DNA of 64,000 nt, from contig JAAEAF010014365.1 in assembly GCA_011037195.1 (NCBI GenBank), positions 210,478-274,477 of the forward strand, in the 5' to 3' direction. Positions 15,051-59,388 of the stretch are shown in pieces. Origin of the DNA: Triatoma infestans (Eukaryota > Arthropoda > Insecta > Hemiptera > Reduviidae). The notes beneath the pieces are model-generated. The model had not been told where the DNA came from, did no database searches, and saw only the letters and a program-made list of their open reading frames with translations. The stretch's first letter is position 1, and every line of letters starts with the position of its first letter. Both the position numbers and the translations under genes were made by a program.

Positions 15051-16050
15051 AAAAAAAAAATCTGGTGAGTTTTCAAAATTATAATTGACAAATTTTATTT
15101 AGTGTACACAAATTTAATGAAATTCTTCGAAAAGTGAAAAAACTGTTCAGTAAAAGCGCACTTCCTGTTTACTAATTTTTCTTGAACTCGGAATTTTGGC
15201 CATCTATTTATTTCTAATTAATTTTTTTTTTTTTTTTTTTTTTTTGGTTGATAGAATTTGTATAATCAAATATGATAGCACTTTAGAGGAAAACATATCC
15301 CCACCACTCCCCTAAAAGTGCCTTTAAATGAATTTTCTCAGAGGCATAAGGTTTTAAATAAAAGTTGTAGATCTTTGTATGTTTAGTTTATATAGGAAGT
15401 TTCAAGGAAATCGTCGGAGACATTTTTGAGAAAATTGCAAAAATGTGGAAAAAAACATTTAGTAAAGTGGTAATGTAAACGCACTTCCGGTTATCCGATT
15501 TTTTTTCAAACTCGGAATTCATCAACATATTTAATTCTAATTAACATTAGTTAGATGGCAGAATTGTCTAATAAACTGAAATAGCACTTTAAAGGAAAAC
15601 CTAACCGCATCCCTCCCCCAATAGTGCCCTTAAATGAATATGCCCAGAGAAATATTTTAAATAAAAGTTGTAGCTTTTTGTATCTGTAGTTGATATACTA
15701 TGTTTGAAGAAAATCGTCGGAGCCATTTTTGAGAAAATCACAAAAAAGTAAAAAAAAGTAAAAAAAAAAAAAAAAAAAAAACAACTAGTAAAGAGGTACT
15801 TCCGGTTGAGGAATTTTGACGTATAACGTAATTTCAGATCCCATGGTGATACCTAAACAGAATATCAAGTTTCAACTTTCTACAGTTTTCGTTTTTCAGC
15901 TATGCTGCTCACATAACACACACACACACACAGCATTTGCTAAAAACCACTTTTTTTGGACTCGGGGGACCTCAAAACGGATATTTCCGGTGAAAACTCG
16001 ATATCGAAAATTTGACACGATTACTTACTAAGAGTAAGAGGAAGTAAACA
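15051..16050 (-). mobile_element. ~1-kb T-ended family (HINE-like), 3' hairpin deleted
   Basis: Near full-length minus-strand copy. Its 5' end is the TACTTCCTCTTACT block at about 16049-16026, followed on the minus strand by the CACCGGAAATATCCG block. It carries both ~300-bp body units (CTTCCGG blocks near 15486 and 15796) and ends at AAAAATCTGGTGAG near 15060. The set-back inverted repeat and most of the 3' hairpin are missing compared with the copy at 49968-50971. A long T-run (15222-15245) has expanded inside it. The Gag-only LTR element sits 11 bp beyond its 5' end. Confidence 0.75.
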
Positions 16051-16060
16051 ATGTGAAAAG

Positions 16061-16633: not shown

Positions 16634-16863
16634 ATATTTTCAACAAGAATCCACAAATTTACAAGTACGTAAAATTTCCAATTTAATAATTAAACTAATT
16701 ATCCATCAGATAATTTTATTAACTTTTAAATTAGTTTCTCAGCGGAAGTATCTAAATATTTCCCATAATTGAATTTTTATTGAATTTCATTTTTGTAATT
16801 TGAAAAATTTTAGTTTTTGAAATTTTGTATTTGCATTATCCCTTGTGAATTTTGATTTCCAAA

Positions 16864-18066
16864 ATGTATAAAATTAACGGACAAAACATGAAAATCGACG
16901 CCGCTGTAGAGTATTTGCTTGCTCAGCAACAATTAGCCAATCCTCCCACCCCCAGCAATCAACCAGCTAGTTCTTTAAGAAATTTACAATTAATTAATAG
17001 TTTACCTACTTTCGATGGCGAAAATTCAGCCAAAGTGTCCGATTTCCTAGACCAAATTAGCCATTGTGCTAGTCTTTCTGGCTGGGACGACGCTGCCAAA
17101 TTAGAAATATTAGCACTTAGACTCTCAGGGTCTGCAAAAATCTTTTACGACACCCAGAAAGCGGAATTACAACGCCAGGGTACAACTATAACGTATCCTC
17201 TAATTTCAGAGCGACTTCTAGCCCGATTTCGTAAGGAAAAAACACCCTTAGTCCTCTTACAACAGATGACTAATATTCAGTCCTTGCCCACTGAGTCTCC
17301 TGAAACATTCGCGGATAGGATTAGACATATCCAATCCGCCATTCATTTAAAAGCTCAAGCCAACCCACTCGAGGCCTTACAAACAATTTTAGATAAACTG
17401 GCCACTGATGCATTCCTGAAATCACTTCCTCAACCGCTTCGTAATGAGGTGCGAACGAAGCTTCCTCAAAAATTAGATGAAGCACTTTCCTATGCCAATG
17501 CCCTAAAAGAAGTTCAGGCTTCTGAAACAAACCCCACAGTTTTCGCTATCACTTCGAAAACTTCTAATCGCACACCCATATCTCTTTGTCGTTTCTGTGG
17601 ACAAATGCATTTCCACAGAGAATGCCCGCATCGTAATAAAAGTCAAAAGCCACCATTAAAACCAACTAGAGTTTTTAATCTAATAAAGAACAGGCCATGC
17701 CGCCACTGTTCCGGTCCACATTTTGACGTGGACTGCACCAACAAATTCAGACCAAAACCTCGTACTAACTTTGGCAAAATGCCTAATAATTTTAATATAC
17801 CAAAAAATTTCAATCGCAGGATATATAGTAATAATTGCTATAATAATAATAATAATAGTAGTCAATATTATACTAACAATAATAATCCTCGAGTTAATTC
17901 AAATAATTCACGATTTAACTCTTATTCAGATAGACCCCAGTATAGTCATAATAATAATGGTTACGAAACTAGCAATCACCTCCAAAATAGGCCCACTTGC
18001 CAATATTGTTCAACATTTGGACATACAGCTCGTAATTGTTTCCAAATACAGCCCAAAACGAGTTAG
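16864..18066 (+). CDS. gag: Retrotransposon Gag with three zinc knuckles
   Basis: A 400-residue Gag-type protein that would form the particle packaging element RNA. I start it at the ATG at 16864 (MYKINGQNMKID); upstream in-frame sequence has no ATG. Residues ~55-210 match the retrotransposon Gag core: FDGENSAKVSDFLDQI, LRLSGSAKIFYD, then a long helical stretch with FADRIRHIQSAI. The C-terminal third carries three Cys/His knuckles: CRFCGQMHFHREC, CRHCSGPHFDVDC and CQYCSTFGHTARNC. The last is the classic C-x2-C-x4-H-x4-C; the first two are C-x2-C-x3-H-x4-C. Between the second and third is an Asn-rich low-complexity linker with basic residues. There is no stop, frameshift or downstream pol. The intact frame suggests recent mobility. 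Confidence 0.93.
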   Translation: MYKINGQNMKIDAAVEYLLAQQQLANPPTPSNQPASSLRNLQLINSLPTFDGENSAKVSDFLDQISHCASLSGWDDAAKLEILALRLSGSAKIFYDTQKAELQRQGTTITYPLISERLLARFRKEKTPLVLLQQMTNIQSLPTESPETFADRIRHIQSAIHLKAQANPLEALQTILDKLATDAFLKSLPQPLRNEVRTKLPQKLDEALSYANALKEVQASETNPTVFAITSKTSNRTPISLCRFCGQMHFHRECPHRNKSQKPPLKPTRVFNLIKNRPCRHCSGPHFDVDCTNKFRPKPRTNFGKMPNNFNIPKNFNRRIYSNNCYNNNNNSSQYYTNNNNPRVNSNNSRFNSYSDRPQYSHNNNGYETSNHLQNRPTCQYCSTFGHTARNCFQIQPKTS

Positions 18067-20348: not shown

Positions 20349-20846
20349 AAAGGTATAAATATCGAGAATGTATTTTAAATTCAAGTCAAATACCTTTCTC
20401 AATAACCTGTGCCGTTTGATATAACCTCAAATATATCTGGGATTTGTTTTGATCTTGTTTTCGCGTATTGCCGCTAGATGTCGGGCTTATTAGAGTTGTA
20501 TAATGTTGCTTTTACACACTAGTGAGAAAAAAGTAGAAATTTAGCCACCGATTTTTAGTGAAATAATTGGTAACATTATTCAACAATTATAGAAAATTGG
20601 ATTTTAGGTTGTTTTGAAGAATCTATGATGTTGCATTTCAGTAAACCGGGAGTGCGCTTTTTACTGAACAGTTTTTTCAGTTTTTTACGATTTTCTTAAA
20701 AAAAAAAAAAAAAAAAAAAACCGTCGGGGTGTCATACTAACTGTACATGCAGAGACCTGTCACTTATGCCTGAAACTATTTCCCGAAATCATTTAAGGGA
20801 GGAGGAGGTAATGCTTTCTAAAAAAAAGAAGTCGTTATAAAGCATC
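20349..20846. other. Degenerate repeat DNA
   Basis: Phrases such as AACCGGGAGTGCGCTTTTTA and an A-run at about 20700-20720 show diverged pieces of the ~1-kb T-ended family, split from the copy left of the LTR element. No gene. Confidence 0.5.
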
Positions 20847-20975
20847 AGAGACATTTTCCGTGGTAGCCTGCTTCATTTTGTGGTCATCGACCGGTTTCGG
20901 GCGTTCGCCCATCTTCAGGATGCGTTTGTCAGACAGTGTGATAACACGGACTTGCACAGAGCAAATTCAGTTTAC
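20847..20975 (-). mobile_element. Penelope-like terminus fragment with hammerhead motif
   Basis: A single partial copy of the ~200-bp unit that forms the array at 40554-41468: ATCAGAGACATTTTCCGTGG, the hammerhead core, then GACTTGCACAGAGCAAA. Orientation is minus with respect to the ribozyme. Confidence 0.65.
20882..20924 (-). ncRNA. Hammerhead ribozyme-like motif
   Basis: Read on the minus strand: CATC, CTGAAGA, T, GGGC-GAAC-GCCC, GAA, ACCGGT, C, GATG. All core bases of the 41352-41394 copy are kept. Confidence 0.65.
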
Positions 20976-21067
20976 ACACTCGTTTTATAAAGTTTAGAGA
21001 TTTCCCACTCATGTAGATTGAAAACAACCAAACATCTAGTGAGAATTATATGTGAAGCGAATTTAAA

Positions 21068-33396: not shown

Positions 33397-33799
33397 TGGA
33401 ATATCACCGTTTTTAATGAACATAACAGAATTCAGAAGAAAATAGGGCTTCTTCACGCTTTTGGTCTATTGCAGTATATTCAAACTTATATATAACTTGC
33501 GGCACTTAAATTACGATCATCAAAATAAGAGAATATCTTTTTAATTAATTTATTAACACAAATAGAATCAAACCGTCATTACAACCAAAAATATACCACA
33601 AAACAATTTATTATAATTGGAAGCATCATAATGATAACAATTAAAATTTTTATTCTTATTCCTTTTGGTATATAATTTCACAATCAGTGCGATATCTGGA
33701 GGCTGATGTTTTTTCTTAAAGATATCTTCTTTACCATGTCGTATTTTGGACAAGCATAAACTTGAATCTTCTTTCAAGGATTCTAGCCGAGATCGTTTT
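33397..33799. other. Gene-free stretch
   Basis: AT-rich; ORF 33568-33777 (-) is lysine/asparagine-rich chance coding. Nothing recognised. Confidence 0.45.
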
Positions 33800-33931
33800 T
33801 TTTACTTTCTCTTACTCCTAGTAAGAGTAAGTATTGTAATCGTGTGAAATTTTCGATATCGAGTTTTCACCGGAAATATCCATTTTGAGAGGTCCCACGA
33901 GTCCAAAAAAGTGGTTTTTAAGCAAGTGGTG

Positions 33932-33970
<39 letters not shown>

Positions 33971-34812
33971 ATGTGAACAGCATAACTCAAAAACGAAAAA
34001 CCGTAGAAAGTTGAAACTTGATATTCCGTTTAGGTATGACCATGGGATCGGATGGTGCATTATATGTCAAAATTCGTCAACCGGAAGTACCACTTTACGA
34101 GTTTTTTTTTTTTACGTTTTTGCGATTTTCTCAAAAATGGCTACGACGATTTTCTTTAAATTTGGTATATCAACTACACATACAAAGAGCTACAACTTTT
34201 ACTTGTAACACTTCTCCGGGAAAATTCATTTAAGGGCACTTCTGGAGGACGGGGTGGGGTTAGGTTTTCATCTTAACTGTTATTTCAGTTTATTAGACAA
34301 TTCTGTCATGTAAATAATGTTAATTAGAATTAAATAATTAAATGTGTTGTTGAAATTCCAAGTTTGAAAAAAATCGGATAACTGGAAGTGTGTTAATTTT
34401 AACACTTTACTAAATGATTTTTTTCACTTTTTCGCGATTTTCAACATAAATGGCTCCGACGAAACTTCGTATATAAACTAAACATGCAAAGATCTACATC
34501 TTTTATTTAAAACATTTCTCTGGGAAAATTCAGTTAAGGGCACTTTTAGGAGAGGGGTGGGGTTAAAGATTCCTCTAAAATGACATCATAGTTGATTATA
34601 CAGTTCTATCATCCAAACAAAATTAATTAGAAATAAATAGATGGCCAAAATTCCAAGTTTTAAGATGATTAGTAAACCGAAAGTGTGCTTTCACTGCATA
34701 GTTTTTCGACGAATTTCATTAAATTTGGTACACAAACTATAACATTTGTTAATTATAATTTTGAGAACAGGAGTAAGAGAAAGTTGTATGAGTGTTTCAC
34801 ACCAGATTTTTT
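33800..34812 (+). mobile_element. ~1-kb T-ended family (HINE-like), full copy
   Basis: Begins with ACTTTCTCTTACTCC at 33804-33818, which opens a hairpin (CTCTTACT-CCT-AGTAAGAG). Then come the TCACCGGAAATATCC block, a TG/TATG microsatellite (33929-33972), TTGAAACTTGATATTCCG, two body units each with a CAAAGA-CTACA-TTTTA-TT core and a GGGGTGGGGTTA block, and finally GGAGTAAGAGAAAGT at 34770-34784, the exact inverse of the start. A 3' hairpin (34786-34802, one mismatch) and CCAGATTTTTT end it. Confidence 0.85.
33929..33972. repeat. (TG)n/(TATG)n microsatellite inside the element
   Basis: GTGTGTGT then TATGTATG repeats, at the same place where other copies have shorter TG/CA runs. Confidence 0.85.
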
Positions 34813-35160
34813 ATTTTTATTTTTGCACGAATTATGTGTGCTTGACCATTAGTCTATATCTGGTTTTTGTTTTGTAATAAATTTATTTTACTGAAAACCC
34901 TTTCAAATTCAGCATTTGAATGCCTTTAATTAGTATTTTCATTATTATACATCGATTATAAATCGTTGTTCATAAACAGATCCTTGCCAAATCGCGCCTT
35001 CTATTTTCGGGCCACGAAACATTATTTTTCAAAGCGCACTTTATTAAGCGCAAAGCGCAAAATGTACTAACATAATCAATAAAGTATTTATTTGATATAC
35101 ATACTTTATTATGCTTTATACTGATTTCCAAAAGAATTTAATTAATGACCATAAAAATTT
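34813..35160. other. Gene-free stretch
   Basis: AT-rich; nothing recognised. Confidence 0.45.
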
Positions 35161-36079: not shown

Positions 36080-37305
36080 TTGCTTTCTCTTAAGTCTGTA
36101 AAGAGGAAGTAATGTATGCGTGTCTAATTTTCAAAATACGTGTTTTGAGATCCTCTGAGTCTAAAAAAGTAATTTTTACTTCCTCTTATTAAAGGAAGTA
36201 AAAGGAAGTATTACGATCGTGCCAGATTCTCGAAATTAAATTTTCACCGGAAATAGACGTTTTAAGGTCTCTTGGAGTCCAAAAAACTGGTTTTTAGAAA
36301 ATGGTCTGTTTGTGGGTATGGCGCCCTCGTATGTTTCAATGTATGTGAAAAGAATATTTCATAAACAAAAAGTTGCAGGAAGCTGAAACATGATATTCCG
36401 TTTAGAGAATAAACCACCGCATCATACACGAAAATTTCTAGCAGTCCATCAACCGGAAATGCCAGTTTATTAAATGTTTCTTTCCTTATTTTTTTTTCAG
36501 TTTTTTGTGGTTTTTCTCTTAAAAGGCACCAACGATTTTCTTTAAACATTGATATATCAACTACACATACAAAGAGCTACAACTTTTATTTGAAATGTTT
36601 CTCCGGGAAAATTCATTTACGGGCATTTTTAGGGCAGTGATGGGGTTATGGTTTCCTCTAAAGTGCTATTTCACTAAAGTTTATTAGACAATTCTATCAT
36701 CTAAATAATATTAATTAAAAATAAATATGCTATATGATATTAATATGAAATTCCGTGATTGTAGAAAATCGGATGACCGGAAGTGCGAATTTACTGAAAG
36801 TAGCATTTCAGTTGGAGCCGTTTTAGAGAAAATAGTTTTCTACTATTTTCTCTAAAACGGCTCCAACTGATTTTTCTACCAGCTGATATCCAACGAAGTT
36901 TTTATTTATCCTTAAACTTGGGATATCAACTATACATGTAAAGAACTACAACTTTTATTTGAAACATTTCTCCGGGAAAATTCATTTAAGGGGACTTTTT
37001 TGGCGATGGGGTGGGGTTATGTTGTCCTCTATAGTGCTGTTTCAGTTCCAACAATTTGCTATACAATTCTGTCAACTAAATAATATTAATTAGAATTATA
37101 TAAGTAATGCCAAAATTCGTGGTTTGAAGAAAATCGGTAGAGAGCGGAAGTGCGACTTTACTTGAATAGGTTTGCAGTATTTTGTGATTTTTTTCGCATA
37201 AAAATGCCGACAGTTTTAAACACTAATAAGAATTGTAAGGGTGAAGAAAATTTGTCATTTCGCAGTTAGAGAAAGTCGTGTGAGTGTTCACACCAGATTT
37301 TTTTT
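36080..37305 (+). mobile_element. ~1-kb T-ended family, rearranged subfamily copy
   Basis: Starts GCTTTCTCTTAAG, restarts at about 36178 with TTACTTCCTCTTATT (a partial duplication of the 5' end), has two body units, and ends with AGAGAAAGTCGTGTGAGTGTT and CACACCAGATTTTTT. It lacks the full set-back inverted repeat. It contains the perfect palindrome at 36808-36870. The 3' ~130 bp matches 45341-45465 better than the other copies, defining a subfamily. Confidence 0.72.
36808..36870. repeat. Perfect 28-bp-arm hairpin
   Basis: Arms 36808-36835 and 36843-36870 are exact reverse complements around TTTTCTA. The arm includes GGAGCCGTTTTAGAGAAAAT, a decayed form of the body-unit phrase, so it arose by local inversion-duplication at the boundary between body units. 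Confidence 0.92.
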
Positions 37306-37682
37306 TATTTTTATTTATTTACCTGTTTGTTCTAAAAAGCTTTGTAATAAAATAAAGTTTTTATTTGTCCATCTTATAAATTTTGATAGGTTTCTAACGA
37401 ACATTTTCAATTTCATATGATCTAGTCTAAAATCCATAATGTAATATTTTTAATCATAACGTTCACAACGGACTGCACATCCCTTTGGCCCGTGGCATTT
37501 AGAAAGAAAGATGTCTCCATACTTTTCTTGTAACCTACTTGACAATGATATTCCTCACTGAAGCGGAAATGGTTTAGAGTGATTCACCCGGATGATTACT
37601 AACAAGCAAAGCTTAACAGTTACACTTACATAACTCAACTAAAATAATTTTTTTTGAATCATCTCAAATTACGTCAGGATGT
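37306..37682. other. Gene-free stretch
   Basis: AT-rich; no gene or repeat edge recognised. Confidence 0.4.
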
Positions 37683-40187: not shown

Positions 40188-40592
40188 CTTATATAGTGGA
40201 AGGACGAAATGGAAAAATAATAGTTTTGGAAAATAGTTTAGTAAAATAATTTTGTGAAAATTAGCAATGGGGATAGAGCCAGGTACTACAATGCAAACCA
40301 AGAGACAAAGGGCAAGAAACAGTTAGGGTAAAACAATAAAACTCCCACCAGACATACCAGCATTATTTGAGAAGATTTGAACAATTAGAAGGCATTCCTT
40401 CAGAAGAGTCTGAACAGACATTCAAGCCAGAACACTTTCGCTTCAGAAATCGCTCTCTTAAACTCAGTGCCAGTGATAGTGATTTGCCTTTATTCTAGAT
40501 AAACATCTGATTTATTAAGATATAGTTGTGATATTGTAAAGTACTTAAATTTGCATCAGAGACATTTTCCGTGGTAGCCTGCTTCATTTTGT

Positions 40593-40635
40593 GGTCATCG
40601 ACCGGTTTCGGGCGTTCGCCCATCTTCAGGATGCG
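40593..40635 (-). ncRNA. Hammerhead-like motif, array unit 1
   Basis: Same core as at 41352-41394, read on the minus strand; all conserved core bases kept. Confidence 0.7.
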
Positions 40636-40789
40636 TTTTTCAGACAGTGTGCCAACACAGACTCGTACAGAGACTTAGTTTCACACTCTTAAAATACTTA
40701 GCCTCACTGGCTCCATATTTGTTGTGTGGTTGTTCCGCAGAGCTGGAAAGCATCAGAGACATTTTCCGTGGTAGCCTGCTTCATTTTGT

Positions 40790-40832
40790 GGTCATCGACC
40801 GGTTTCGGGCGTTCGCCCATCTTCAGGATGCG
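40790..40832 (-). ncRNA. Hammerhead-like motif, array unit 2
   Basis: Identical core to unit 1, 197 bp further on. Confidence 0.7.
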
Positions 40833-40990
40833 TTTTTTCGACAATGTGACAACACAGACTCGCACAGGACAACTGAGTTTCACACTCTTAAAATACTTAG
40901 CCTCACTGGCTCCATATTTGTTGTGGTGGTTGGTTCCGCAGAGCTGGAAAGCATCAGAGACATTTTCCGTGGTAGCCTGCTTCATTTTGT

Positions 40991-41033
40991 GGTCATCGAC
41001 CGGTTTCGGGCGTTCGCCCATCTTCAGGATGCG
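40991..41033 (-). ncRNA. Hammerhead-like motif, array unit 3
   Basis: Identical core, 201 bp after unit 2. Confidence 0.7.
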
Positions 41034-41191
41034 TTTTTTAGACAATGTGACAACACAGACTCGCACAGGACAAACTTAGTTTCACACTCTTAAAATACTT
41101 AGCCTCACTGGCTCCATATTTGTTGTGTGGTTGGTTCCGCAGAGCTGGAAAGCATCAGAGACATTTTCCGTGGTAGCCTGCTTCATTTTGT

Positions 41192-41234
41192 GGTCATCGA
41201 CCGGTTTCGGGCGTTCGCCCATCTTCAGGATGCG
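41192..41234 (-). ncRNA. Hammerhead-like motif, array unit 4
   Basis: Identical core, 201 bp after unit 3. Confidence 0.7.
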
Positions 41235-41351
41235 TTTTTAGACAGTGTGACAACACGACTCGCACAGAGCAAACTTATTTCACCTAAGTTTGCTAGAGTG
41301 TGAAACTAAGTTTGCTCTGTGCGAGTCTGTGTTGTCACACTGACTAAAAAA

Positions 41352-41394
41352 CGCATCCTGAAGATGGGCGAACGCCCGAAACCGGTCGATGACC
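41352..41394 (+). ncRNA. Hammerhead-like motif, inverted unit 5
   Basis: Plus strand. Stem I CATC (41354-41357) pairs with GATG (41388-41391). Core CTGAAGA is 41358-41364. One extra U (41365) precedes stem II, GGGC-GAAC-GCCC (41366-41377). GAA follows at 41378-41380, then a minimal stem III ACCGGT (41381-41386) and C at 41387, the predicted cleavage base (GUC). The 2-bp stem III and the extra U differ from the canonical fold; short stem III forms are known from Penelope-like elements and animal satellites. Confidence 0.72.
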
Positions 41395-41689
41395 ACAAAA
41401 TGAAGCAGGCTACCACGGAAAATGTCTCTGATGCTTTCCAGCTCTGTGGAACCAACCACCACAACAAATACTTAAATTTGCTTAGAGAATAATATATTAA
41501 TTTTAAAAACAGTGGTGCTCTCTTGATTATTACTAATACTTCTCTCTTAAACATATATACTCACACGCCCTTTTACTAAACCGCTCGTGCTACGCCAACT
41601 ACTACTACAAACATACAACAACACAACACATCAAGAACATTTCACTTACTTCCTAGGCTCATACAAATCCTCTCTAAATTGCACCCCAG

Positions 41690-41800
41690 ATAAAGGGAAT
41701 TCCTTTCTCCATTTGCTTTCAAGGTATAACGGGAGAAGCTTATTGCAATATGGGTGAAGCGTCGGTTTCTAGCAAACCACTGACACAGTCTTAACCTGGA
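41690..41800 (+). mobile_element. Penelope-like terminus fragment, second hammerhead family
   Basis: CTTTCAAGGTATAACGGGAG, AAGCTTATTGCAATATGGGT, GAAGCGTCGGTTTCTAG, CCACTGACACAGTC. It matches 47505-47595 and, inverted, 46880-46985. The core is decayed (GGAGA for CTGAAGA; GAAG for GAAA). Confidence 0.5.
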
Positions 41801-41939
41801 AACTTGAGTGTTTTTTCATGAAAATGGGCGCTGAAATCTAAAATATCACAAACAAACAAACAAAAAATTCCTTTTCTTTTTGTGGATTTTATTTTTTTAG
41901 CGAAGTAAATTAAAACAAAAACCAAACATCTGAGTTCAT

Positions 41940-42306
41940 ATGGGAATTTTTGGGAATGAGGAGGTGGATAGGTTTGCTAAATTAGGCGCCTCCCTTCCTT
42001 TCATTGGTCCCGAGCTTGCTGTTGGCGTGTCTTCTGGCATATGTCTGTTAGGCTTCCAGTCATGGACAGCTTTACAGCATTTATTGATGAAGCACAGTTG
42101 GTTGTCAGCAGTCAAAGATGCTTATCGGGGATCCGGACAAGGCTATTAGTGAGATGTTGATGTGTTTTTCACGCAGCTCTCTCAGGTATCTGGTTGGATC
42201 GCTTACTGGACATTGTGGTTTAAGGAGACATCTCTATGTACTGGGGCTCCTGCCGGATCCATTTTGTAGAGTCTGTGAGACAGAAGTGCTGAATCTTCAG
42301 CACTGA
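41940..42306 (+). pseudogene. LINE RNase H C-terminus and Cys motif
   Basis: MGIFGNEEVDRFAKLGASLP corresponds to the last RNase H block (HxGIxGNExAD) with its final catalytic Asp. After about 50 residues a frameshift near 42115 leads into a second frame, MLIGDPDKAISEML, then LVGSLTGHCGLRRHLYVLGL and FCRVCETEV, the GLLTGH and Cys-x2-Cys region that follows RNase H in I/R1/LOA-type LINEs. It is truncated at 42306, where a repeat (CAGCACTGAGAACGTTCTGG) begins. The copy at 47736-48842 extends it on the 3' side. Confidence 0.75.
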
Positions 42307-42923: not shown

Positions 42924-43760
42924 CTGACCGCTACTTCAGGGTCAGCTTATAGATCATCCTTCTCTAATTTCCTTCCTATATCTGCTGGTGTTCCCCAAGG
43001 AAGTATACTTGAATCCATCCTTCACTCCATTTATACAACTGATATGCCAACTATGCCACATACCTCCACTCTCTACACATTCACTGATGATACCGCCATT
43101 CTTGCTACACATAAGGATTCCGTAATAGTAACTCGCAATCTACAGGCGCATCTGAATTCACTCGACAAATGGTTCAACAAATGGGGAATCAAAATCAGTG
43201 CTGAAAAAAGCCAAACCATTTCCTTCACTCTCCAACGGCTCACCACTGCTCCAGTTTATTATGACAGTGTCGCCTTACCTCCAACATACATAAAAAGTTC
43301 GCTACTTAGGACTATACTTGGACCGACGCCTCACCTGGATTCCACATATCAGACTCAAACGACAGGCACTATTTCAACGTTACAAAATGCTGATGCGATT
43401 ACTTGACAAACGATCTAACCTAACACTTACTAACAAACTTTTAATCTACAAAGCCATACTTAAACCTATTTGGGCTTACGGCGCAAAACTGTGGCGTTCA
43501 ACCAAACGATCTAATTATAATCGTATCCAAACATTCCCCAATCCAAATCCTCCCCAAAATCATTTCAGCTCCTTTCTTTGTCTCCAATCATACACTCCAT
43601 ACAGACTTAAATATACCATACGTCCGTCAAGAAATCCTATTCCGTTACAACAAATTTCACAACAGTTTATCATCTCACGTCAATCCTCTTTTCCGTGCAC
43701 TTGCATCCCTAACTAACCGTATAAATTCAAAACGAAGACTAAAACTTCAGTGGCCTCGTG
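42924..43760 (+). pseudogene. Jockey-like LINE ORF2 fragment with RT active site
   Basis: From 42924 the frame reads AYRSSFSNFLPISAGVPQGS (the GVPQGS block), TLYTFTDDTAILAT (FADD active site with one change, both Asp kept), then LDKWFNKWGIKISAEKSQ. A frameshift near 43310 moves to YLGLYLDRRLTWIPHI, LIYKAILKPIWAYGAKLW and IQTFPNP, the thumb and C-terminal region. It is 5'-truncated and frame-broken. An A-run ends the element at 43911. Flanks GTTGTACAGA (42909-42918) and GTTGTGCAGA (43913-43922) may be a target duplication with one mismatch. It is closer to the fragment at 9894-10690 than to the other LINEs here. Confidence 0.87.
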
Positions 43761-43922: not shown

Positions 43923-44337
43923 ATTTCTGGCGTTAAATTTCAAATGGCAGTTGATTCAATTATTGGTACGTTCTACTGGGCCAGAATACAATCACTTCAC
44001 TGCCTGTCAAGATTAATATGTAGGTACTTACCCCTCCCCCAAACCACCACCGCTTTATGTTAGGATAAATACGATTTAAAGGAAATTCATCACTATTTAT
44101 ATAATTCTTTATAAAAAAGGTTTCAATTTTATATATTAATATTATCTTTGAAAATTAATAAATCTTTAAGATGTTGACATTATGCCCTAATCATAGAGTG
44201 ATTTGAACGATCGTGCAGGTGGGAATTATAAATTATAAATATAAAAAAATCTGCTACACATTAGTATTATTGATGTTTAAAATTTAGTATTAAACTTTTT
44301 AAATTTAGGCACTCATATTGATATAAATTAGAAACAA
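43923..44337. other. Gene-free stretch
   Basis: AT-rich; CTACCCC-type and AAGATCAA phrases suggest old copies of the ~1-kb family. No gene. Confidence 0.4.
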
Positions 44338-45340
44338 AAAAAAAAATCTGTTATGAAACACTCACACAACATTCTTTTACTCCCAGTTCTCAAAATTATA
44401 ATTGACAAATTTTATAGTTTGTGTACCAAATTTAATGAAATAACGTCAAAAACTGAAAAAACTGTTCAGTAAAAGCGCACTTCCGGTTTACTAATTTTCT
44501 TAAAGCTCGGAATTTTAGCCATCTATTTATTTCTAATTAATTTTGTTTGGATGATAGAATTGTATAATCAACTATTAATAGCACTTTAGAGAAAAACATA
44601 CCCTCTCCCTTCCTCCAAAAGTGCCCTTAAATGAATGATCTCAGAGAAATGTTTTATATAAAAGTTGTAGATCTTTGCAGGTTTAGTTTATATACGATGT
44701 TTCAAGAAAATCAATGGAACTATTTTTGAGAAAATCGCGAAAAAGTAAAAAAAAAATCATTTAGTAAAGTGGTAAAGTAAACGCACTTCCGGTTATGCGA
44801 TTCATTTCAAACTTAGAATTTCAAGAACATATTTAATTCTAATTAACATTATTTAGATGACAGAATTGTCTAATAAACTGAAATAGCACTTTAGATGAAA
44901 ACCTAACCCCACCCCTCCCGCAGAAGTGCCCTTAAATGAATTTTCCTGGAGAAATGTTTCAAATAAAAGTTGTAGCTCTTTGTATGTGTAGTTGATCTAC
45001 CAAGTTTGAAGAAAATCGTTGGAGCCATTTTTAAAAAAATCGCAAAAAAGTAAAAAGAAAAAAACTAGTAAAGTGGTACTTCCGGTTGAGAAATTTTGAC
45101 GTATAACGAACTGTCAGATCACATGGTGATACCTAAACGGAATATCAAGTTTAAACCTTCTACGGTTTTTCGTTTTTGAGTATGCTGTTCACATACATAC
45201 ATACATACATACACAGAGACCATTGCTAAAAACCACTTTTTTGGACATTTAAGCGGATATTTCCGGTGAAAACTCGATATCGAAAATTTGACACGATTAC
45301 TATACTTCCTCTTACTAGGAGTAAGAAGAAAGTAAAAATT
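44338..45340 (-). mobile_element. ~1-kb T-ended family (HINE-like), full copy
   Basis: Minus strand: 5' end at about 45337 (TTACTTTCTTCTTACTCC), GGAAATATCCGC block, CATACATACATACA run at 45192-45214 in place of TG repeats, two body units, 3' hairpin region and AGATTTTTTTTTT at about 44338. It is nested within an older copy whose 3' end follows at 45341-45465. Confidence 0.82.
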
Positions 45341-45465
45341 TAATAATAAAAATTGTAAGGTCGAAGAAAATTCTTTTGTAATAAAAACTACGTAAACTAC
45401 AGTCGTAAAGAGAAAGTCGTGTGAGTGTTTCACACCAGATTTTTTTTTTTTTTTGTACCAAACTC
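45341..45465 (+). mobile_element. 3' end of an older copy of the ~1-kb family
   Basis: AAAATTGTAAGGTCGAAGAA, AGAGAAAGTCGTGTGAG, TGTTTCACACCAGATTTTTT: the last ~120 bp of the subfamily at 36080-37305. Confidence 0.7.
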
Positions 45466-46394: not shown

Positions 46395-46580
46395 TTTTAC
46401 TTCAGAGCATCAGAGTTATTTTCCGTGTGATAGCTTGTTTTTTTTTTTTTTTTATGGTTATCGATCGGTTTCGGGCGTTCGCCTATCATCAGGATGTTTT
46501 TGTCAAAACAGTGTGATGATCTTGGTTATCATGGAAAATATCTCTGATTGTTTTCAGCTCTGCGGAACCAATCATAAAGT
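46395..46580. mobile_element. Collapsed inverted Penelope-like pair
   Basis: Left arm CATCAGAGTTATTTTCCGTG with hammerhead; right arm GGAAAATATCTCTGATTG and CTCTGCGGAACCAATC is the inverse of the array-unit start. The right arm has lost its ribozyme. Confidence 0.6.
46456..46496 (-). ncRNA. Hammerhead-like motif (CTGATGA variant)
   Basis: Minus strand: CATC, CTGATGA, TAGGC-GAAC-GCCC, GAAACCGATC, GATA. It has the canonical U at position 7. Confidence 0.62.
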
Positions 46581-46740: not shown

Positions 46741-47887
46741 AAGATCAAGTTTATACTTGTTTGCCTAAAGGGCGCCCTCTTTTTCAAGCACCTGTAAAAT
46801 TGGTTTAAACTTAAAATCACGATCATAAATCCTTCCATAATGCCCCCATTTCTATTAAAAAATACTTGAGCTTCCTAGTTGAGATCGTGTCGGTGGATTT
46901 TCTAGAAAACCGTTGTTTCGCCCATATTGCAATGAGCCTCTTCAGGATCGTTACACCTTGAATGCTAATGCAGCAAATGGCTAATAGAGCTAATGGAAAT
47001 TTCATATTTGCTGCCCCACATTAGTTTTCATTGTGGTCCCTTCTGCATCTCTTTTAATTGAGACATTTTTCTAATGTATAATCGATTTTTGGACGATACT
47101 GGAGGAGCTGCCTCATTAGGCTTTTCTGAAAAGTAATTTAATTTACAGTTCTACCCACCCCCAAATGCTTAATAGACATCAAAAGCGTTGTAAGCGTTGT
47201 TTAAAGTTTGAAGAAAATTAAAACGGAAGTGCAATTTCACGGAATAGTTTTTGGAATTTATGGAATTTCCATGAAATTGGGTCCAATGATTTTCTTTAAA
47301 CACGGAATACGGTTAATGATCATTGAGGTTTCCATGGGTATTTTCACGAAAAACATTTGAGTTTCCTCGTTGAAACTGCGTCAGTGATCCATATTGCGAT
47401 GAACCTCTTCAGGGTCATTATACACTGAATACTAATGGAGCAATGAACCTTAGTAGAGAAGGGGCGTAGCATGAAAGGACCCAACAAGATTCATTGCTCC
47501 ATTTGCTTTCAAGGTATATCGGCCCTCGAAGAATCTCATTGAATATGGGCGAAACCTCGGTTTCTAGCCAGCCATTGACACGGTCTTAACCTGGGAAACA
47601 TGAGTGTTTTTTTCATGAAAATGGGCACGAAAACCTAAAATATCATAAACAAATAAAAAAAATTCCTTTTCTTTTTGTGGTTTTTAATTTTTTAGACGAC
47701 GTAAATTAAAACAAAAACCAAACATCTGAGTTCGTATGGGAATTTTTGGGAATGAGGAAGTGGATAGGTATGCCAAATTAGGCGCATGTCTTCCTTTCAT
47801 TGGTTCTGAGCCTGCTGTTGGCATGTTTTCTGGCACATGTCTGTCAGGCTTCCATTAATGGACAGCTTTACAGCATTCATCCTTATG
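46741..47887. mobile_element. Cluster of second-family hammerhead termini
   Basis: Minus-oriented motif at about 46903-46952, another at 47370-47418, and a plus-oriented one at 47523-47567. The last two sit in an inverted pair of about 125-bp arms (47325-47440 and 47490-47615) joined by TCCATTTGCTTTCAAGG. From 47600 a ~130-bp spacer leads into the RNase H remnant at 47736, exactly as at 41800-41940. Confidence 0.55.
47523..47567 (+). ncRNA. Hammerhead-like motif, second family
   Basis: CCTCGAAGA (one change from CCTGAAGA), long stem II ATCTCATT...AATATGGGC, GAAACCTCGG. Relatives at 46903-46952 and 22911-22962 keep CTGAAGA or GTC, so the ancestral motif was probably complete. Confidence 0.45.
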
Positions 47888-48525
47888 TTTTTTTGGTGTT
47901 CGTTACGACCGCGGTATTCAATATTGTAAATTGGATGTTGAGGTTCGATCCTACAAAAGAACTCTTTTTAAATTTCTACCGACGTTTCTGCAAATTTATT
48001 GCCTTCTTCAGGGTCTGTACAAAGGTTTTAATACAAATCAATAAAAAATAGAAACAACATAAAATATAAACTTTAAATAAATATTTTCAAAATAAGTTTT
48101 TTTTTTAAATAAACTAAATAAAAAGTATGATATATATAGCACATTTAAATTTATTATAAACTATTGTTGTAGAACAGATCAATATTAAACTAAATCACAA
48201 GTATTAAAACTTTGATAATATGTGGCATATATAAGAGTAAAGTATGGAAATAACTAAGGAAATGTAGTTACAAAAATTTTCAGTTAGAATTACAGTAGTA
48301 ATTACTCTCGTTTAACCTGTGCCATACCATCATCAAGTGTTATGGACATTGGATGGTTCACGGTTTATAAAGGGCTAGGAGAGCGGATGGGAAAACCGTG
48401 TCTTAGTCTATATCAGTGTTACCATGTCCCCTCAAGTAGGTAATAAATTTGCCGAAACGTCTGTATAAATTTAAAAAGAGTTCTTTTGTATGGCCGAACC
48501 TCAACATCCAATTTACAGGATTCAT
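47888..48525. mobile_element. Penelope-like terminus pair with 10-bp duplication
   Basis: Flanked by CATCCTTATG (47878-47887 and 48526-48535). Inverted arms of about 100 bp: TAAATTGGATGTTGAGGTTC near the left end and the inverse near the right end. Each arm carries a hammerhead-like core. The ~430 bp between them is AT-rich without coding capacity. Confidence 0.75.
47976..48017 (-). ncRNA. Hammerhead-like motif, fourth family
   Basis: Minus strand: ACC, CTGAAGA, A, GGCAA-TAAA-TTTGC, A, GAAACGTC, GGT. The mirrored plus-strand copy at 48430-48467 keeps GAAACGTC but has CTCAAGT. Confidence 0.6.
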
Positions 48526-48990: not shown

Positions 48991-49967
48991 CCCCTCCCCA
49001 CAGACAAATAATAATAAATATTTGAATAAATTAAAAAAAAAATCTCTAAAAGAAAAGGGACAGAATTTTTTGGTTTTTCTACCCCCAATTTCACTTAACA
49101 TTTTTATTTAGTGCGATATCCAATATTCTTCCACATGGCATACATATCAACAGAATGAGGATTGAAATCCTAAATTTATATCAAATCTAAAGGAATGTGG
49201 TTCTCTCAAGGAGAAATTTTTTTTTTTTTAATTTATTTTACTTTAATCATGTTTATATTTAATGTTTACTTAAGTCGGTTAATGATACCCATTTTAATAA
49301 GTAAACAATAAAGAAAATATGATAAGAATGTAAAAAGATAAAATGCCAACATTTATGTTTATTTATTGCTATTTAATTTGCGTAAAATTTTATCTAGAAA
49401 TCTTTTGTTAAATAAATAAATAAATAAATAAATAACAGTTTGTATATGGTAAAAACCAGTCGAGTTTCTTTCTTAGTTATCTTTTTACAATTAATCAACA
49501 ATTCCTTTAAAGAAAAAGAAAAGAAAAAAATTAACTTTAACAAAACATATGTTTCTAATGTTCATACAAAAGTGGTTGTTTTAGCAAGCGCCATTTTGAG
49601 AGCCAATGCAACCTTCTTTTGTTTTAACTGATAAAAAAGAAGAAATCTGCTATAAAATACTCACACATCTTTCTCTTAATAGAATTTCCACCAATTTGTG
49701 ATTTTTACTGAAGTTAACTAATTTTAATATTAAACAACTAGGAGAATCTAAAGTAAAAACTAGAGTTGATGGAAGCGTGACCTCCTGCTGTACCAGAATC
49801 CCTAAAGTACACTTACTCGTAACAATGTTTTTAAAACAAAGGTGATGATAATAAACCCCGATAAATAGAAAATTAATATAATTCCAAAGACCGATAAACA
49901 AAGGACAAAAATTGTTTTTACCAAAGGTGATTTTGGAGTAAGTATATCAGGTTTAAAAAAGAACAAA
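48991..49967. other. Gene-free stretch
   Basis: AT-rich. (AAAT)n at 49409-49434. ACTCACACATCTTTCTCTTA at 49661-49680 is an old 3' end of the ~1-kb family. No gene. Confidence 0.45.
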
Positions 49968-50971
49968 AAAATCTGGTGTGAAACACTCACACAACTTTCT
50001 CTTATTCCAGTTTTCAAAATTATAATTGACAAATTTTATAGCTAGTGTAACAAATTTAATGAAATTCGTCAAAAACTGAAAAAAAAAAAAAAACTGTTCA
50101 GAAAAAACGCACTTCCGGTTAACTAACTTTCTTGAAATTCGGAATTTTGGCCATCTATTTATTTCTAATTAATTTGGTTTGGATGATAGAATTGTATAAT
50201 CAACTAGGATAGCACTTTAGAGAAAAACATAATCCCTTCCCCTCCCTAAAAGTACCTTTAAATGAATTTTCCCAGAGAAATGTTTTAAATAAAAGTTGTA
50301 CATCTTTGTATGCGTAGTTTATTTACGAAGTTTCAAGAAAATCGCCGGAGACATTTTTGAGAAAATCGCGAAAAAGTGAAAAAAAATCATTTAGTAAAGT
50401 GGTAAAGTAAACGCTCTTTCGGTCATCAGATTTTTATCAAACTCGGAATTTCTACAACACACCTAATTTTAATTAACATTATTTAGATGACAGAATTGTT
50501 TAATAAACTGAAATAGCACTTTAGAGGAAACCGTAACCCCACTCCTCCCCCAAAAGAACCATTAAATGCATTTTTTCGGAGAAATGTTTCAAATAAAAGA
50601 TGTAGCTCTTTGTGTGTGTAGTTGATGTAGCACGTTTCAAGAAAATCGTTATAGCTATTTTTGAGAAAATCGCAAAAAAGTAAAAAAAAAAAACAACTAG
50701 TAAAGAGGTACTTCCGGTTGAGGAATTTTGACGTATAACGTACTGTCGGATCCCATGGTGATACCTAAACGGAATATCAAGTTTGAACATTCTACGGTTT
50801 TTCATTTTTGAGCTATGCTGTTCACATAATACATACACACACACCATTTGCTAAAAACCACTTTTTTTGACTCAGAGGACCTCAAAACGGATATTTCCGG
50901 TGAAAACTCGATATCGAAAATTTGACACGATTACAATACTTCCTCTTTACTAGGAGTAAGAGAAAGTAAAA
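49968..50971 (-). mobile_element. ~1-kb T-ended family (HINE-like), full copy
   Basis: Minus strand. 5' ACTTTCTCTTACTCC at 50967-50953; set-back inverse at 49994-50008 (one mismatch); perfect 3' hairpin GTGTGA-GTGTT-TCACAC at 49992-49976; T-run end near 49968. Both body units and both GGGG-GG-TTA blocks are present. Confidence 0.87.
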
Positions 50972-51097
50972 AATTAAAAATCGCCAAAAAACTGAAGAAA
51001 AATAAATGACATTCACTAAAGCCGCATTTCCGCTGAACCGATTTTCTTCTAAATACATTTAACTCATATTAACATTCTGTAGAAGTTAAAAAACTGT
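50972..51097. other. Degenerate spacer
   Basis: Traces of the ~1-kb family (CCGCATTTCCGCTGAACCGA). No gene. Confidence 0.4.
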
Positions 51098-54783: not shown

Positions 54784-55510
54784 ATATGTTTATGTCAGAG
54801 ATATTTTCCGTGATAACCTGCTTCTTTTTGTGGTCATCGACCGGTTTCGGGCGTGTTCGCTCATCATCAGGATGCTTTTTGTCAAACAGTGTGGTATCAT
54901 ACATTTGCCCAGAGCAAATTTGTGTGCAGTATTTCTACAAATATTGTAAAGGAATAAACACTCTTTTGTTGAGGAAATTTATCCCAACAAGAGTAGTCAG
55001 CTTCATGTTGCAAGGATCAACGTTTTCAGGCTGCTTTCTCTACTTGAAAAACTACTGGAAAAGCTATCTAGAAGCGCATTATTTCTTCCGTCACGCCCGC
55101 CCCTACCAAACCGCTTTAAAAATGTTTGTGAGCTGTGCATAGAATCCTGGACAATTGTTGGAAGGCTTGTTTCCAGACTGGCAGTTTCCTTCTTGAGAGT
55201 GTATATAGTCATATTGCATGTTAATTTTTAATTCTTGATAGTTAATTTCAGACTGACTTCAACTCTAAAAATTGGTGATCTTAAACACGATTTTTGGTAG
55301 CTCTTGGAAGGTAGCTATGCATAGCTTTTGCTGGGAACTTAATAATAGAAGGTCCTGTTCAGTACGGGTGGGTGTGATGGAAGAAGTGTTGCGCGTGGAA
55401 CAGCGCTGAAAAGGTTGACGTCTACAACATGAAGCTGACTACTCTTGTTGGGATGAATTTCCTCAACAGAAGAATGTATAAACTATTACAATATTTTTTA
55501 TAGAAATATT
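54784..55510. mobile_element. Penelope-like block with inverted arms
   Basis: It starts with the array-unit-like GTCAGAGATATTTTCCGTGA and a hammerhead core, then a ~100-bp segment (54927-55027: GTTGAGGAAATTTATCCCAA, GAGTAGTCAGCTTCATGTTG) that recurs inverted at 55406-55509. The ~380-bp spacer has no coding motif; ORFs at 54786-55142 are chance. Confidence 0.6.
54832..54875 (-). ncRNA. Hammerhead-like motif (CTGATGA variant)
   Basis: Minus strand: GCATC, CTGATGA, TGAGCGAACACGCCC, GAAACCGGTC, GATG. Stem II has a 2-base insertion but the core is complete. Confidence 0.65.
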
Positions 55511-56003: not shown

Positions 56004-57008
56004 TTTTTACTTTCTCTTACTCCTAGTAAGAGGAAGTATTGTAATCGTGTCAAATTTTCGATATCGAGTTTTCACCGGAAATATCCGTTTTGAGGTCCCC
56101 TGATCCAAAAAAAGTGGTTTTTAGCAAATGGTGTGTGGTCTGTGTGTGTATGTATGTGAACAGCATAGCTCAAAAAAAGAAAAATCGTAGAAAGTAGAAA
56201 CTTGATATTCCGTTTAGGTATCACCATGGGAACTGACAGTACGTTATGTGACAAAATTCCTCAACCGGAAGTACCACATTACTTGTTTGGTTTTTTTTTT
56301 ACTTTTTTACGTTTTTCTCAAAAATGGCTCGTACGATTTTCTTCAAACTTGATATATCAACTACACATAGAAAGAGCTACAACTTTTATTTGAAACATTT
56401 CTCTGGTAAAATTCATTTAAGGGCAGATATGGGGGTGGGGTGGTTTAAGGTTTTCAACTAAAATGCTATTTCGGTTTATCAAACAATTCTATCACCTAAA
56501 TAATGTTAATTAGAATTGAATGTGTTGTTGAAATTTCGAGTTTCAACAAAATCGGATAACCGGAAATGCTTTTACATTACCACTTTAGTAAATGATTTTT
56601 TTCACATTTTCGCGAGTTTCTCAAAAATGTCTTCGACAATTTCCTTGAAACTGTATATATAAACTAAACATACAAAGATCTACAACTTTTATTTAAAACA
56701 TTTCTCTACGAAAATTCATTTAAGGGCACTTTTGGAGGAAGGGTGGGGTTATGTTTTTCTCTAATGTGCTATCATAGTTGATTATACAATTCCTTATCAT
56801 CCAAACAAAATTAATTATAAATAAATAGATGGCCAAAATTCCGAGTTTCAAGAAAATTAGGAAACCGGAAGTGCGGTTTTATTGGACAGTTTTTTTCAGT
56901 TTTCGACGAATTTCATTAAATTTGTTACACAAACTATAATATTTGTCAATTATAATTTTGAAAACTGGAGTAAGAGAAAGTTGTGTGAGTGTTTCACACC
57001 AGATTTTT
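56004..57008 (+). mobile_element. ~1-kb T-ended family (HINE-like), reference copy
   Basis: Cleanest copy. ACTTTCTCTTACTCC at 56009-56023 starts an 8-bp-stem hairpin region; the exact inverse GGAGTAAGAGAAAGT is at 56967-56981, set back from the end. A perfect 3' hairpin GTGTGA-GTGTT-TCACAC is at 56983-56999, followed by CAGATTTTTTT. The two body units are offset by about 300 bp (compare 56341 and 56643). No coding capacity. Confidence 0.9.
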
Positions 57009-57715
57009 TTGAGTTTTTGAAAACGACTATAAAGATTTCACTTTTAATTTTGGAATGCTAAATACAGAGATAAATACCTATCACTTTTATTTATAACAAT
57101 TTGCCCCCCAAGAAAATTATGTTTAGGTAGGTTATTATTATATTCGTTCATATAATTCATTAACGTATAATGAAACATGAGTAAAATGACAGCTTCGAGG
57201 TTTACAAGAAAGTTAATCAACACTGATACATACCTACATTTGGAGGAATACAATCTTTATGTTATTTTGATTATTAGATTTAAATAAAAAAAATTTTAAA
57301 ATCTACAGATATTTGATTCGATTAGATAATAAACATCTCATTTGCAGTCCAGCCTTATACCATTAGTCAGATTATATTGTCTGAAATAAAAACACCCCAG
57401 GGGGGACAGAGCTTGCTGGCTGGCCCAGTTCTCAAAAGAGATATTCAATTATATATATTTCACATTGCACAGTTTCAAGGTTGATCAAAGTGGATATAAA
57501 AGAAACATCTTTGGTGGCGGCACGTTCAATAATTTTCTTTTAAAATGTTACGTGACAATGGGTCTCTCACTATTATTTTGTTTTTATATAAATATATATA
57601 CATTTCTGTGGAGATATTCATGGCCTTGATTCTATAACTCTGTTGAGAATATTGTTCTAACAAGATATATTTTCAAATTTATATAATCTGTTGTTAACAA
57701 TAAATAACGGTTAAT
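57009..57715. other. Gene-free stretch
   Basis: AT-rich; no gene or repeat edge recognised. Confidence 0.45.
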
Positions 57716-58725
57716 TTTTACTTTCTCTTACTCCTAGTAAAAGGAAGTATTGTAATCGTGTCAAATTTTCAATGCTGAGTTTTCACTGGAAATATCCTTT
57801 TTGAGGTGCCCTGAGTCCAAAAAAAGTGGTTTTTAGCAAATGGTCTATGTGTGGGTGTCTGTATGTATGAATATGAACAGCATAGCTCAAAAACGAAAAA
57901 TCGTAGAAAGTTCGAACTTTATATTCTGTTTAGTTATCACTAAGGGATCCGACAGTGGGTCATCTGTCAAAATTCCTCAACCGCAAGTACCACTTTACTA
58001 GTTGGGTTTTTTACGTTTTTGCGATTTTCTCAAGAATGGCTTCAACGATTTTCTTCAAACTTGATATATGAAGTACACATACTAACAGCTACAACTTTTA
58101 TTTGAAACATTTCTCCGGGAAAATTCATTTAAGGGCACTTCTGGGTGAGGGGTGGGGTTAGGTTATTATCTAAGTACTATTCCAGTTTATTAGACAATTC
58201 TGCCATCTAAATAATGTTAATTAGAATTGAATATGTTGTTGAAATTCCGAGTTTGAAAAAAATCGGATAACCGGAAGTGCATTTTTTACTTTACCACTTT
58301 ACTAAATGATTTTTTTTCACTTTTTCGCGATTTTCCCAAAAATGGCTCCGATGATCTTCTTGAAACTTTTAATATAAACTAAACATGCAATGATCTATAT
58401 CATTTATTTAAAACATTTCTCTGGGAAAATTCATTTAAGGGCACTTTTAGGGGAGGGGTAGGGTTACAGCTTCCTCTAAAGTGCTATCATAGTTGATTAT
58501 ACAATTCTATCATCCAAACAAAATTAATTAGAAATAAATAGATTGCTAAAATTCCGAGTTTCAAGAAAATTAGTAAACATGAAGTGCGCTTTTACTGAAC
58601 AGTTTTTCAGTTTTCGACGAATTTCGTTAAATTTGGTACTCAAACTATAAAATTTGTCAATTATAATTTTGAGAACTGGAGTAAGAGAAAGTTGTGTGAG
58701 TGTTTCACACCAGATTTTTTTTTCT
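57716..58725 (+). mobile_element. ~1-kb T-ended family (HINE-like), full copy
   Basis: Same layout as 56004-57008: start 57720-57734, set-back inverse 58678-58692, perfect hairpin 58694-58710, then CAGATTTTTTTTT. The (TG)n site is a short GTGTGGGTGTCTG. Confidence 0.88.
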
Positions 58726-59055
58726 TTTATGTTAAAGCTTAAAACGAAAAAAGTTTGGAGCGGCAGTTTAAATTTAAACCAAACTCAGGGGTTCATCAAA
58801 ATTCCTTTAAAACTTGTTCTGATACGTTTATATCTTTACGAATAGCGTTCCAACTTTAAACAAAATCATTGGAGCCGATTTCAGAAAAAAATCGATGAAA
58901 AAACAACAGAAAAATGCACTTTCGGAGCAACAAAATTAAGCTTTCCCCTACATCCCAGCTTTTCAAAAACATTAGCCGATGAATATTTTTAAAATCACTG
59001 AATCTTTTTTTAAATTGTGGTCCTCGGAGTCCGGGTAAAAGATTATTAAATATTG

Positions 59056-59090
<35 letters not shown>

Positions 59091-59138
59091 GTCAGTATAA
59101 ATTAAAAAACGGAAAATCGTAGAAAGCTGAAACTTGAT

Positions 59139-59388
59139 TGTTCATGTTGGTTGGTTCCGCAGAGCTGGAAAGCAACACAGACATTTTCCGTGATAGCCTG
59201 CCTCTTTTTTGGGCGTTCGCCCATCTTCAGGATGCGTTTGTCACACAGTGTGATAACACAGACTTGCACAGAGCAAATTCAGTTTACATAGTGAGTGTAA
59301 ACGCATCCTGAAGATGGGCGAACGCCCGAAACCGGTCGATGACCACAAAAAGAAGCAGGCTATCACGGAAAATAATCTCTGATGCTGT
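59139..59388. mobile_element. 250-bp palindromic Penelope-like insertion, 8-bp duplication
   Basis: Flanked by AACTTGAT at 59131-59138 and 59389-59396; other family copies have a single AACTTGATATTCCG here. The left arm (minus) has lost the stem III/GAAA part of its ribozyme; the right arm (plus) is intact. The outer left end extends through GGTTCCGCAGAGCTGGAAAG. Confidence 0.8.
59302..59344 (+). ncRNA. Hammerhead-like motif, intact
   Basis: Same 43 bases as the inverted array unit at 41352-41394, with complete core and GATG/CATC stem I. Confidence 0.7.

Follow-up and report, generated by a model that had tools for sequence, protein, structure and literature searches.

A tandem array of hammerhead-like units in Triatoma infestans is probably an internally deleted Penelope-like element inserted from linear RNAs

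A block of short ribozyme units in a 64,000-nucleotide stretch of the Triatoma infestans genome (the window) was found to share its ends, its promoter end and its ribozyme with coding Penelope-like elements (PLEs) of the same genome. Judged by these features, the array is a non-autonomous, internally deleted PLE, and we estimate the probability at roughly 80% that it was inserted in trans from linear RNAs with template jumping. One genome thus ties a retrozyme-like array to a PLE through shared ends, which offers an origin for tandem ribozyme repeats without the need of a circular RNA. Insertion ends cluster at predicted cap sites and at the predicted cut of the hammerhead, and counting them could test ribozyme use and array origin in any PLE-bearing genome.

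Results and Discussion

Structure of the array and its target duplication

The sequence-only reading had described four head-to-tail units of about 200 bp followed by an inverted fifth, and this layout was confirmed at 40553-41470, flanked by 13-bp direct repeats. The repeat, TACTTAAATTTGC, is exact at 40543-40555 and 41469-41481 and frames the whole block as a target-site duplication (TSD); the last bases of the left copy overlap the end of the element by microhomology. As a chance control, an exact repeat of at least 12 was seen in 0.5% of 400 random position pairs, while a looser TSD score of at least 9 was reached by 14 of 1500 such pairs. The direct units lie on the minus strand across 40553-41283 with spacings of 197, 201 and 201 (unit 1, 40553-40731; unit 2, 40732-40932; unit 3, 40933-41133; unit 4, 41134-41283). 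Between the two arms is an 11-nt filler, CTAAGTTTGCT (41284-41294), which resembles unit sequence, and the plus-strand inverted arm (41295-41470) matches the complement of a direct unit at 97% across 176 nt.

Positions within the element are numbered in RNA sense, which is the minus strand for the four direct units, with the A of the hammerhead ATG as +1 and the preceding base as 0. On this scale, the left insertion edge in unit 1 is at about +71 and is a no-tail end, whereas the inverted arm begins at the predicted cap site after a G and has a tail end at about +106. Unit 4 is incomplete, its truncated end lying some 3 nt from the predicted transcript start. The array therefore has the form of a PLE insertion, with two outward arms, one without a tail near +69 and the other with a tail of about 37 nt, and a TSD.

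The hammerhead motif

A core of 30 bases (CTGAAGA-T-GGGC-GAAC-GCCC-GAA-ACCGGT-C) is identical in all five units, as had been noticed at first sight; four copies read on the minus strand and the fifth on the plus strand. From stem I to stem I, the motif occupies 40596-40633 in unit 1, 40793-40830, 40994-41031 and 41195-41232 in the other direct units (all minus strand), and 41354-41391 (plus strand) in the inverted unit, where the predicted cut falls between 41387 and 41388. Every one of what we take to be the hammerhead core positions is present, together with three stems. Stem III is a loop-less palindrome, ACC/GGU (ACCGGU), and so a full stem III requires two copies; an extra U precedes stem II. 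The cut is predicted after C17, which is C24 (+24) in our numbering. Minimal PLE hammerhead variants studied by Luense and colleagues in 2017, whose stem III is likewise loop-less and palindromic, reportedly cleave as dimers.

From its sequence, and without a match to an Rfam model, the array motif is assigned to the minimal type I hammerheads. The comparison with Rfam models that the sequence-only reading had proposed did not return it: Rfam 15 gives no hammerhead in the window, neither at the gathering score nor up to E = 10. This silence is weak evidence because another PLE-like motif in the window is likewise without an Rfam match. Single-strand folding of the unit and the dimer gave a minimum-energy fold without the double hammerhead, a structure that the program used cannot draw. 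The core is no better conserved in the fetched copies than the sequence just downstream (2.3% for both, compared to 11.5% upstream). A miRNA-like Rfam match over the inverted joint was rejected, being only the long palindrome. An exact search for the core in the viral contigs of IMG/VR gave 0 matches. A looser PLE-hammerhead pattern was found in one IMG/VR 'viral' contig (L009:3734-3763), which is perhaps eukaryotic contamination, and an Rfam scan of this contig found no hammerhead.

Coding relatives in the same genome

The window's own 941-Mb assembly was searched with the unit, which gave 1405 first-look candidates, and 40 of these were scored (59 matches). Thirty-nine other loci were fetched along with that of the window, and then 15 longer stretches around some of them. 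The earlier suggestion that a Penelope-type enzyme inserted a ribozyme element with no protein of its own is supported by the finding of coding PLE copies with the same ends in this genome. One of them, L056, is a two-armed insertion with a span of 2416 and a TSD; within its body lie the coding sequences of a reverse transcriptase (YVDD) and of a GIY-YIG endonuclease. The Pfam matches of L056 to RVT_1 and GIY-YIG both score below the cut-off, and its protein has 44% identity with a PLE protein of Rhagoletis. A second copy, L051, has 1252 bp in common with L056 at 97%, up to the no-tail end. Over the shared ends, the inverted arm of the array is 98% and unit 1 is 96% identical to L051.

Each array unit corresponds to the start of the PLE: it runs from the promoter end through the hammerhead, which spans the start codon, to codon 44, and the remainder is deleted. 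The PLE ORF that begins at the hammerhead ATG (MGERPKPVDDHK... / MGERPKPVDDHKMKQATTENVSDAFQLCGTNHHNKYGASEAKYFNNFYN...) is open for 278 and 290 aa in two of the five copies tried. The array unit encodes residues 1-44 to ..KYF and then passes through a deletion junction straight to the transcript start, which is why we read it as an internally deleted PLE. When the window copy was tested for coding capacity of its own, these first 44 residues were all that was found, and the array would therefore be non-autonomous. The junction was also used as a query (64 nt over the unit junction; 185 candidates, 40 scored). Among these 40, it matched the array itself, a diverged second array (C1795), a partial copy (C966) and 35 other loci, and the 35 match exactly over the first 45 bases only. 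The linker between units is PLE ORF sequence from beyond the tail: 24 of 25 inspected loci continue as PLE ORF, and the remaining one, L076, has its own junction.

These features resemble the GIY-YIG PLEs of the Penelope/Poseidon type. The known Penelope form has a pLTR and an inverted pLTR, an optional tail of about 31-40 bp on one arm and a TSD (PMC3846280), and our family shares these features. In the Anolis PLE, the ORF starts at stem II and the hammerhead cut is at +26 (PMC11167929); here the hammerhead is also at the ORF start, with a predicted cut at +24. The family ORF has both the reverse transcriptase and the GIY-YIG domain. Unlike the GIY-YIG PLEs, the window array has lost almost the whole ORF and contains four direct units. 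Another difference is that, in this family, the 5' ends of insertions allow the predicted cap sites and the hammerhead cut to be recognised.

Two-armed insertions and their tails

Many family insertions in the fetched loci consist of two arms that stand head to head, with their 3' ends outward, between TSDs. Arms were accepted only with a 3' end at +62 to +78 or +88 to +116, and 15 short loci, which had been fetched a second time at greater length, do not enter the arm analyses. Overlapping loci (L001-L008, L049 and L065-L067) and L009 were left out of the conservation and arm-end counts. The count of tails was limited to pairs with a TSD score of at least 9, and in all 36 of them a no-tail end at +67 to +75 is combined with a tail end at +95 to +111. 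The order is tail/no-tail in 20 pairs and no-tail/tail in 16, and the window array is no-tail/tail. The first 39 loci were chosen by a query containing the tail and, therefore, tail counts in them are biased. Loci sampled by a pattern inside +25 to +55, and thus not chosen for the tail, gave mixed pairs in 9 of 9 cases with both ends visible. Among pairs without a clear TSD, L020 and L024 are tail/tail, L013 ends at +81/+106 and L068 at +74/+70.

The window contains four further insertions of the ribozyme family besides the array, and its three inverted-pair insertions are all of the one-tail-one-none kind. One pair, at 46406-46574, is no-tail/tail with the TSD TTGTTTTACTT, and another, at 59134-59386, is tail/no-tail with the TSD GCTGAAACTTGAT/GCTGTAACTTGAT. 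Two older copies on the minus strand are single-armed and without a tail: that at 20839-20980 has the TSD TTATAAAG and a G before the cap site, while that at 54795-54921 has a CTGATGA core, and a TSD was looked for around it and none was found. The insertions at 46 kb, 54 kb and 59 kb are in or beside sequence related to a repeat of about 1 kb.

The one-tail-one-none rule suggests that the two target strands are handled differently. In the Anolis PLE in vitro, both target strands are cut and extended (Frangieh et al., PMC11167929), and reverse transcription starts at two internal sites, which define the tail (PMC11167929). Another explanation for inverted arms is self-priming of one cDNA by fold-back, as is proposed for the Adineta Penelopes (PMC3846280), and palindrome-rich head-to-head joints do occur. 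We consider it unlikely for this family, since the arms of one insertion often begin at different places, a tail is present on just one of the two arms in all 36 pairs with a clear TSD, and a few pairs have arms with differing subfamily variants (for example L036, where the fetched stretch ends at the TSD). When arms were compared within insertions, most differences were private and uninformative save in these few loci. Separate priming on the two target strands is the reading that we carry forward.

Arm starts at predicted cap sites

Among 114 arms from the fetched loci and the window, 29 start at A(-66), from 22 sources, and eight at A(-70). A G stands immediately before the start in 36 of these 37 arms (28 of 29 at -66, 8 of 8 at -70), whereas read-through PLE copies have T and C at those two positions, not G (TCAGTTAGTGTG). 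The chance of a G before A(-66) is roughly 1/3, because T before A(-66) is excluded by the rule for calling arm ends. The cap-type G was also seen on the inverted arm of the array and at its unit junctions. TCAGTT at the predicted start fits the arthropod initiator. The extra G looks like the mark of a copied cap, and the cap would then be the source of this base. A literature search, with subscription papers mostly outside its scope, returned no title on a cap-derived base in PLE insertions, nor one on PLE insertion ends at a hammerhead cut.

Arm starts at the predicted hammerhead cut

Three arms in two loci, among the 114, start exactly at +25, which is the first base after the predicted hammerhead cut. 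The genome was searched with a pattern of +25 to +55 preceded by four bases all unlike the element, and 95 matches with 44 distinct upstream 4-mers were obtained; given this number of 4-mers, some of the matches may be copies or haplotigs of one event. The same search at control positions gave raw counts of 49 (+27), 30 (+35), 23 (+20), 17 (+24) and 24 (+23). After indel and duplication variants were removed by eye at +27, +35 and +20, 22, 16 and 16 were left, respectively. The +27 pattern has 29 exact bases and the other patterns 31. Scaled for base composition, the value at +25 is 245, compared to 52-71 at +27, +35 and +20. From these three controls, 24 (cleaned) or 46 (raw) matches were expected at +25, for a Poisson P of about 1e-27 or 1e-10.

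All 18 of the +25 matches that were fetched are arms running from +25 to a normal 3' end, and both 3' ends are visible in nine of these loci. The partner arms, which are not themselves matches, start at 25, 33, 25, 26, 25, 38, 56, 64 and -70, so that three of the nine pairs have a second +25 start. L104 was left out of this partner-arm count because both of its arms are among the 95 matches. Both arms start at +25, with a TSD, in L095, L098, L102 and L104. Some +25 ends and cap ends are joined to pieces of PLE ORF (L081, L084, L082 and L100), as would be expected if the enzyme jumps between RNAs at the template end. Some arms are joined through filler, such as the roughly 190 bp between the two +25 arms of L104. 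The arms of L111 are joined by a short rearranged piece and those of L101 by what is, by eye, antisense PLE sequence.

The excess at +25 suggests that the ribozyme probably cuts in vivo and that cleaved RNAs serve as templates. One alternative is that the +25 ends are stops of the reverse transcriptase at RNA structure; reverse transcriptases do pause at stems, and cleavage here is predicted. However, a halt before stem III would keep C24, and the +24 count of 17 is about the 16 expected by spill-over from +25 ends that happen to follow a C. There is also no comparable excess at +23, +24 or +27. A stop before stem I would fall near +29, between the counted positions +27 and +35. On the counts obtained, pausing is an improbable source of these ends, and cutting by the ribozyme itself is the reading that we prefer. 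With dozens of copies starting at the predicted cut, the ribozyme would appear to be active in the animal's germ line. The Anolis hammerhead is dispensable in vitro, and no RNA-seq ends were found at its cut (Frangieh et al., PMC11167929). We would give somewhat better than even odds to the broader proposal that insertions keep a single-nucleotide footprint of cleavage, with the ribozyme cutting in the germ line, the 5'-OH product being a normal template for two-armed insertion, and retrozyme-like arrays arising, without a circle, by jumps of the PLE reverse transcriptase from one capped RNA to another.

Unit haplotypes and the origin of the array

The five array units carry three haplotypes. 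Unit 1 has two markers in common with 10 and 13 fetched loci, many of which bear the ORF. The common haplotype, whose two markers occur in 41 and 48 loci, is complete in unit 4; the inverted arm keeps its first marker and differs by a single base in the second. Two further markers are common to units 2 and 3, of which one is absent from every other fetched locus and the other is present in three more. A junction pattern search of the genome gave five exact matches in all, a count that altered copies would escape, and among these the array's own junction occurs only in the array, three times over and identical. Other junctions of the unit type were found in C1795, C239, C7450 and L025, and those of C1795, C239 and L025 have the cap-type G as well. 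With three identical junctions and no other exact match, one jump followed by later expansion fits better than three jumps.

The block had been thought to have integrated as a multimer and not grown in place, a claim that held in part. At least two units were probably present from the start, because units 1 and 4 differ in haplotype and both haplotypes are found elsewhere. Some later expansion inside the block is suggested by the private marker of units 2 and 3 and the array-only junction. These last two observations would also suit a young satellite, in which unequal crossing-over enlarged an insertion of one or two units at its site, and we treat it as a possible but less likely account. Against it, the unit 1 and unit 4 haplotypes occur separately elsewhere, and the cap-type G of the junction is also seen at the other junctions (C1795, C239 and L025); reverse transcription was therefore the probable origin of at least the first junction.

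The other part of the original proposal, copying from a circular RNA, did not gain support, as many arms start at predicted cap sites or the hammerhead cut and the units are of three haplotypes. According to Cervera and de la Pena 2020 (PMC7229834), animal non-LTR retrozymes are protein-less tandem units of about 170-400 nt with a type I hammerhead and long TSDs. Our array is like them in its short protein-less tandem units, its type I hammerhead and its TSD, and the unit of about 201 bp, the low GC and the co-existing PLEs also match that description. A strict retrozyme cycle, in which a tandem transcript is cut to monomers and circularised and the circle is copied repeatedly into a multimer that integrates, would further agree with the +25 ends, which suggest that cut RNA exists. 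Still, such a cycle seems improbable to us, since repeated copying of one circle would not be expected to leave three haplotypes in five units. Nor are the arm starts spread evenly round a circle: they are concentrated at +25 and at predicted cap sites, where an extra G precedes them, and the left arm of the array stops within about 3 nt of the cap site. The array also differs from these retrozymes in that its units, not being identical, give no sign of a circular template, and its hammerhead is of the minimal kind with a loop-less stem III. Moreover, its ends, promoter end and ribozyme are common to a PLE of the same genome and, thus, a likely mobiliser can be named. The haplotype pattern fits neither one circle copied four times nor the duplication of a single unit, and we favour a jump from one RNA to another during insertion, after which the inner units multiplied to some extent.

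A model for insertion

The element RNA would start at a Pol II initiator, and the start codon of its ORF would lie within a minimal type I hammerhead. Further along, at about +69 and +106, would be the two sites where the enzyme begins reverse transcription. The reverse transcriptase and the GIY-YIG endonuclease may be supplied in trans by a coding PLE of the same genome, and this enzyme would cut AT-rich DNA with a stagger of about 12-13 bp. One cDNA would be primed by each target 3' end, one starting near +69 and the other near +106, and the two cDNAs would extend toward each other and be joined head to head. The templates would be linear RNAs, either capped or the 3' product of hammerhead cleavage. 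Head-to-tail units could result when the enzyme reaches the capped 5' end of one RNA and switches, near +135, to a second PLE RNA. Two units or more were probably present in the initial insertion, and the inner ones may have multiplied later.

Other repeats in the window

A second PLE-like family is present at 47888-48520, with the core CTGAAGAAGGC..GCAGAAACGTC at 48011 on the minus strand and a partner near 48430 on the plus strand. By eye, this inverted pair has tail/no-tail ends; it is flanked by CATCCTTATG and sits inside a copy of another repeat (a homologue of 41699-42284). A third repeat, at 41699-42084, 46842-46976 and 47489-47880, has a hammerhead-like core (CTGAAGAGGCTCATTGCAATATGGGCGAAAC..) with an ATG at stem II and resembles a PLE 5' end. 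The repeat of about 1 kb was found at 15068-16052, 33799-34823, 44328-45347, 49953-50981, 56004-57024 and 57714-58733. Its copies are 78-87% identical and have an internal duplication of about 305 bp, and an extra copy near 36171-37318 is about 68% identical. Two ORFs belong to other retroelements: that at 16849-18066 is gag-like, with no Pfam match, and that at 42924-43406 encodes a non-LTR reverse transcriptase (RVT_1).
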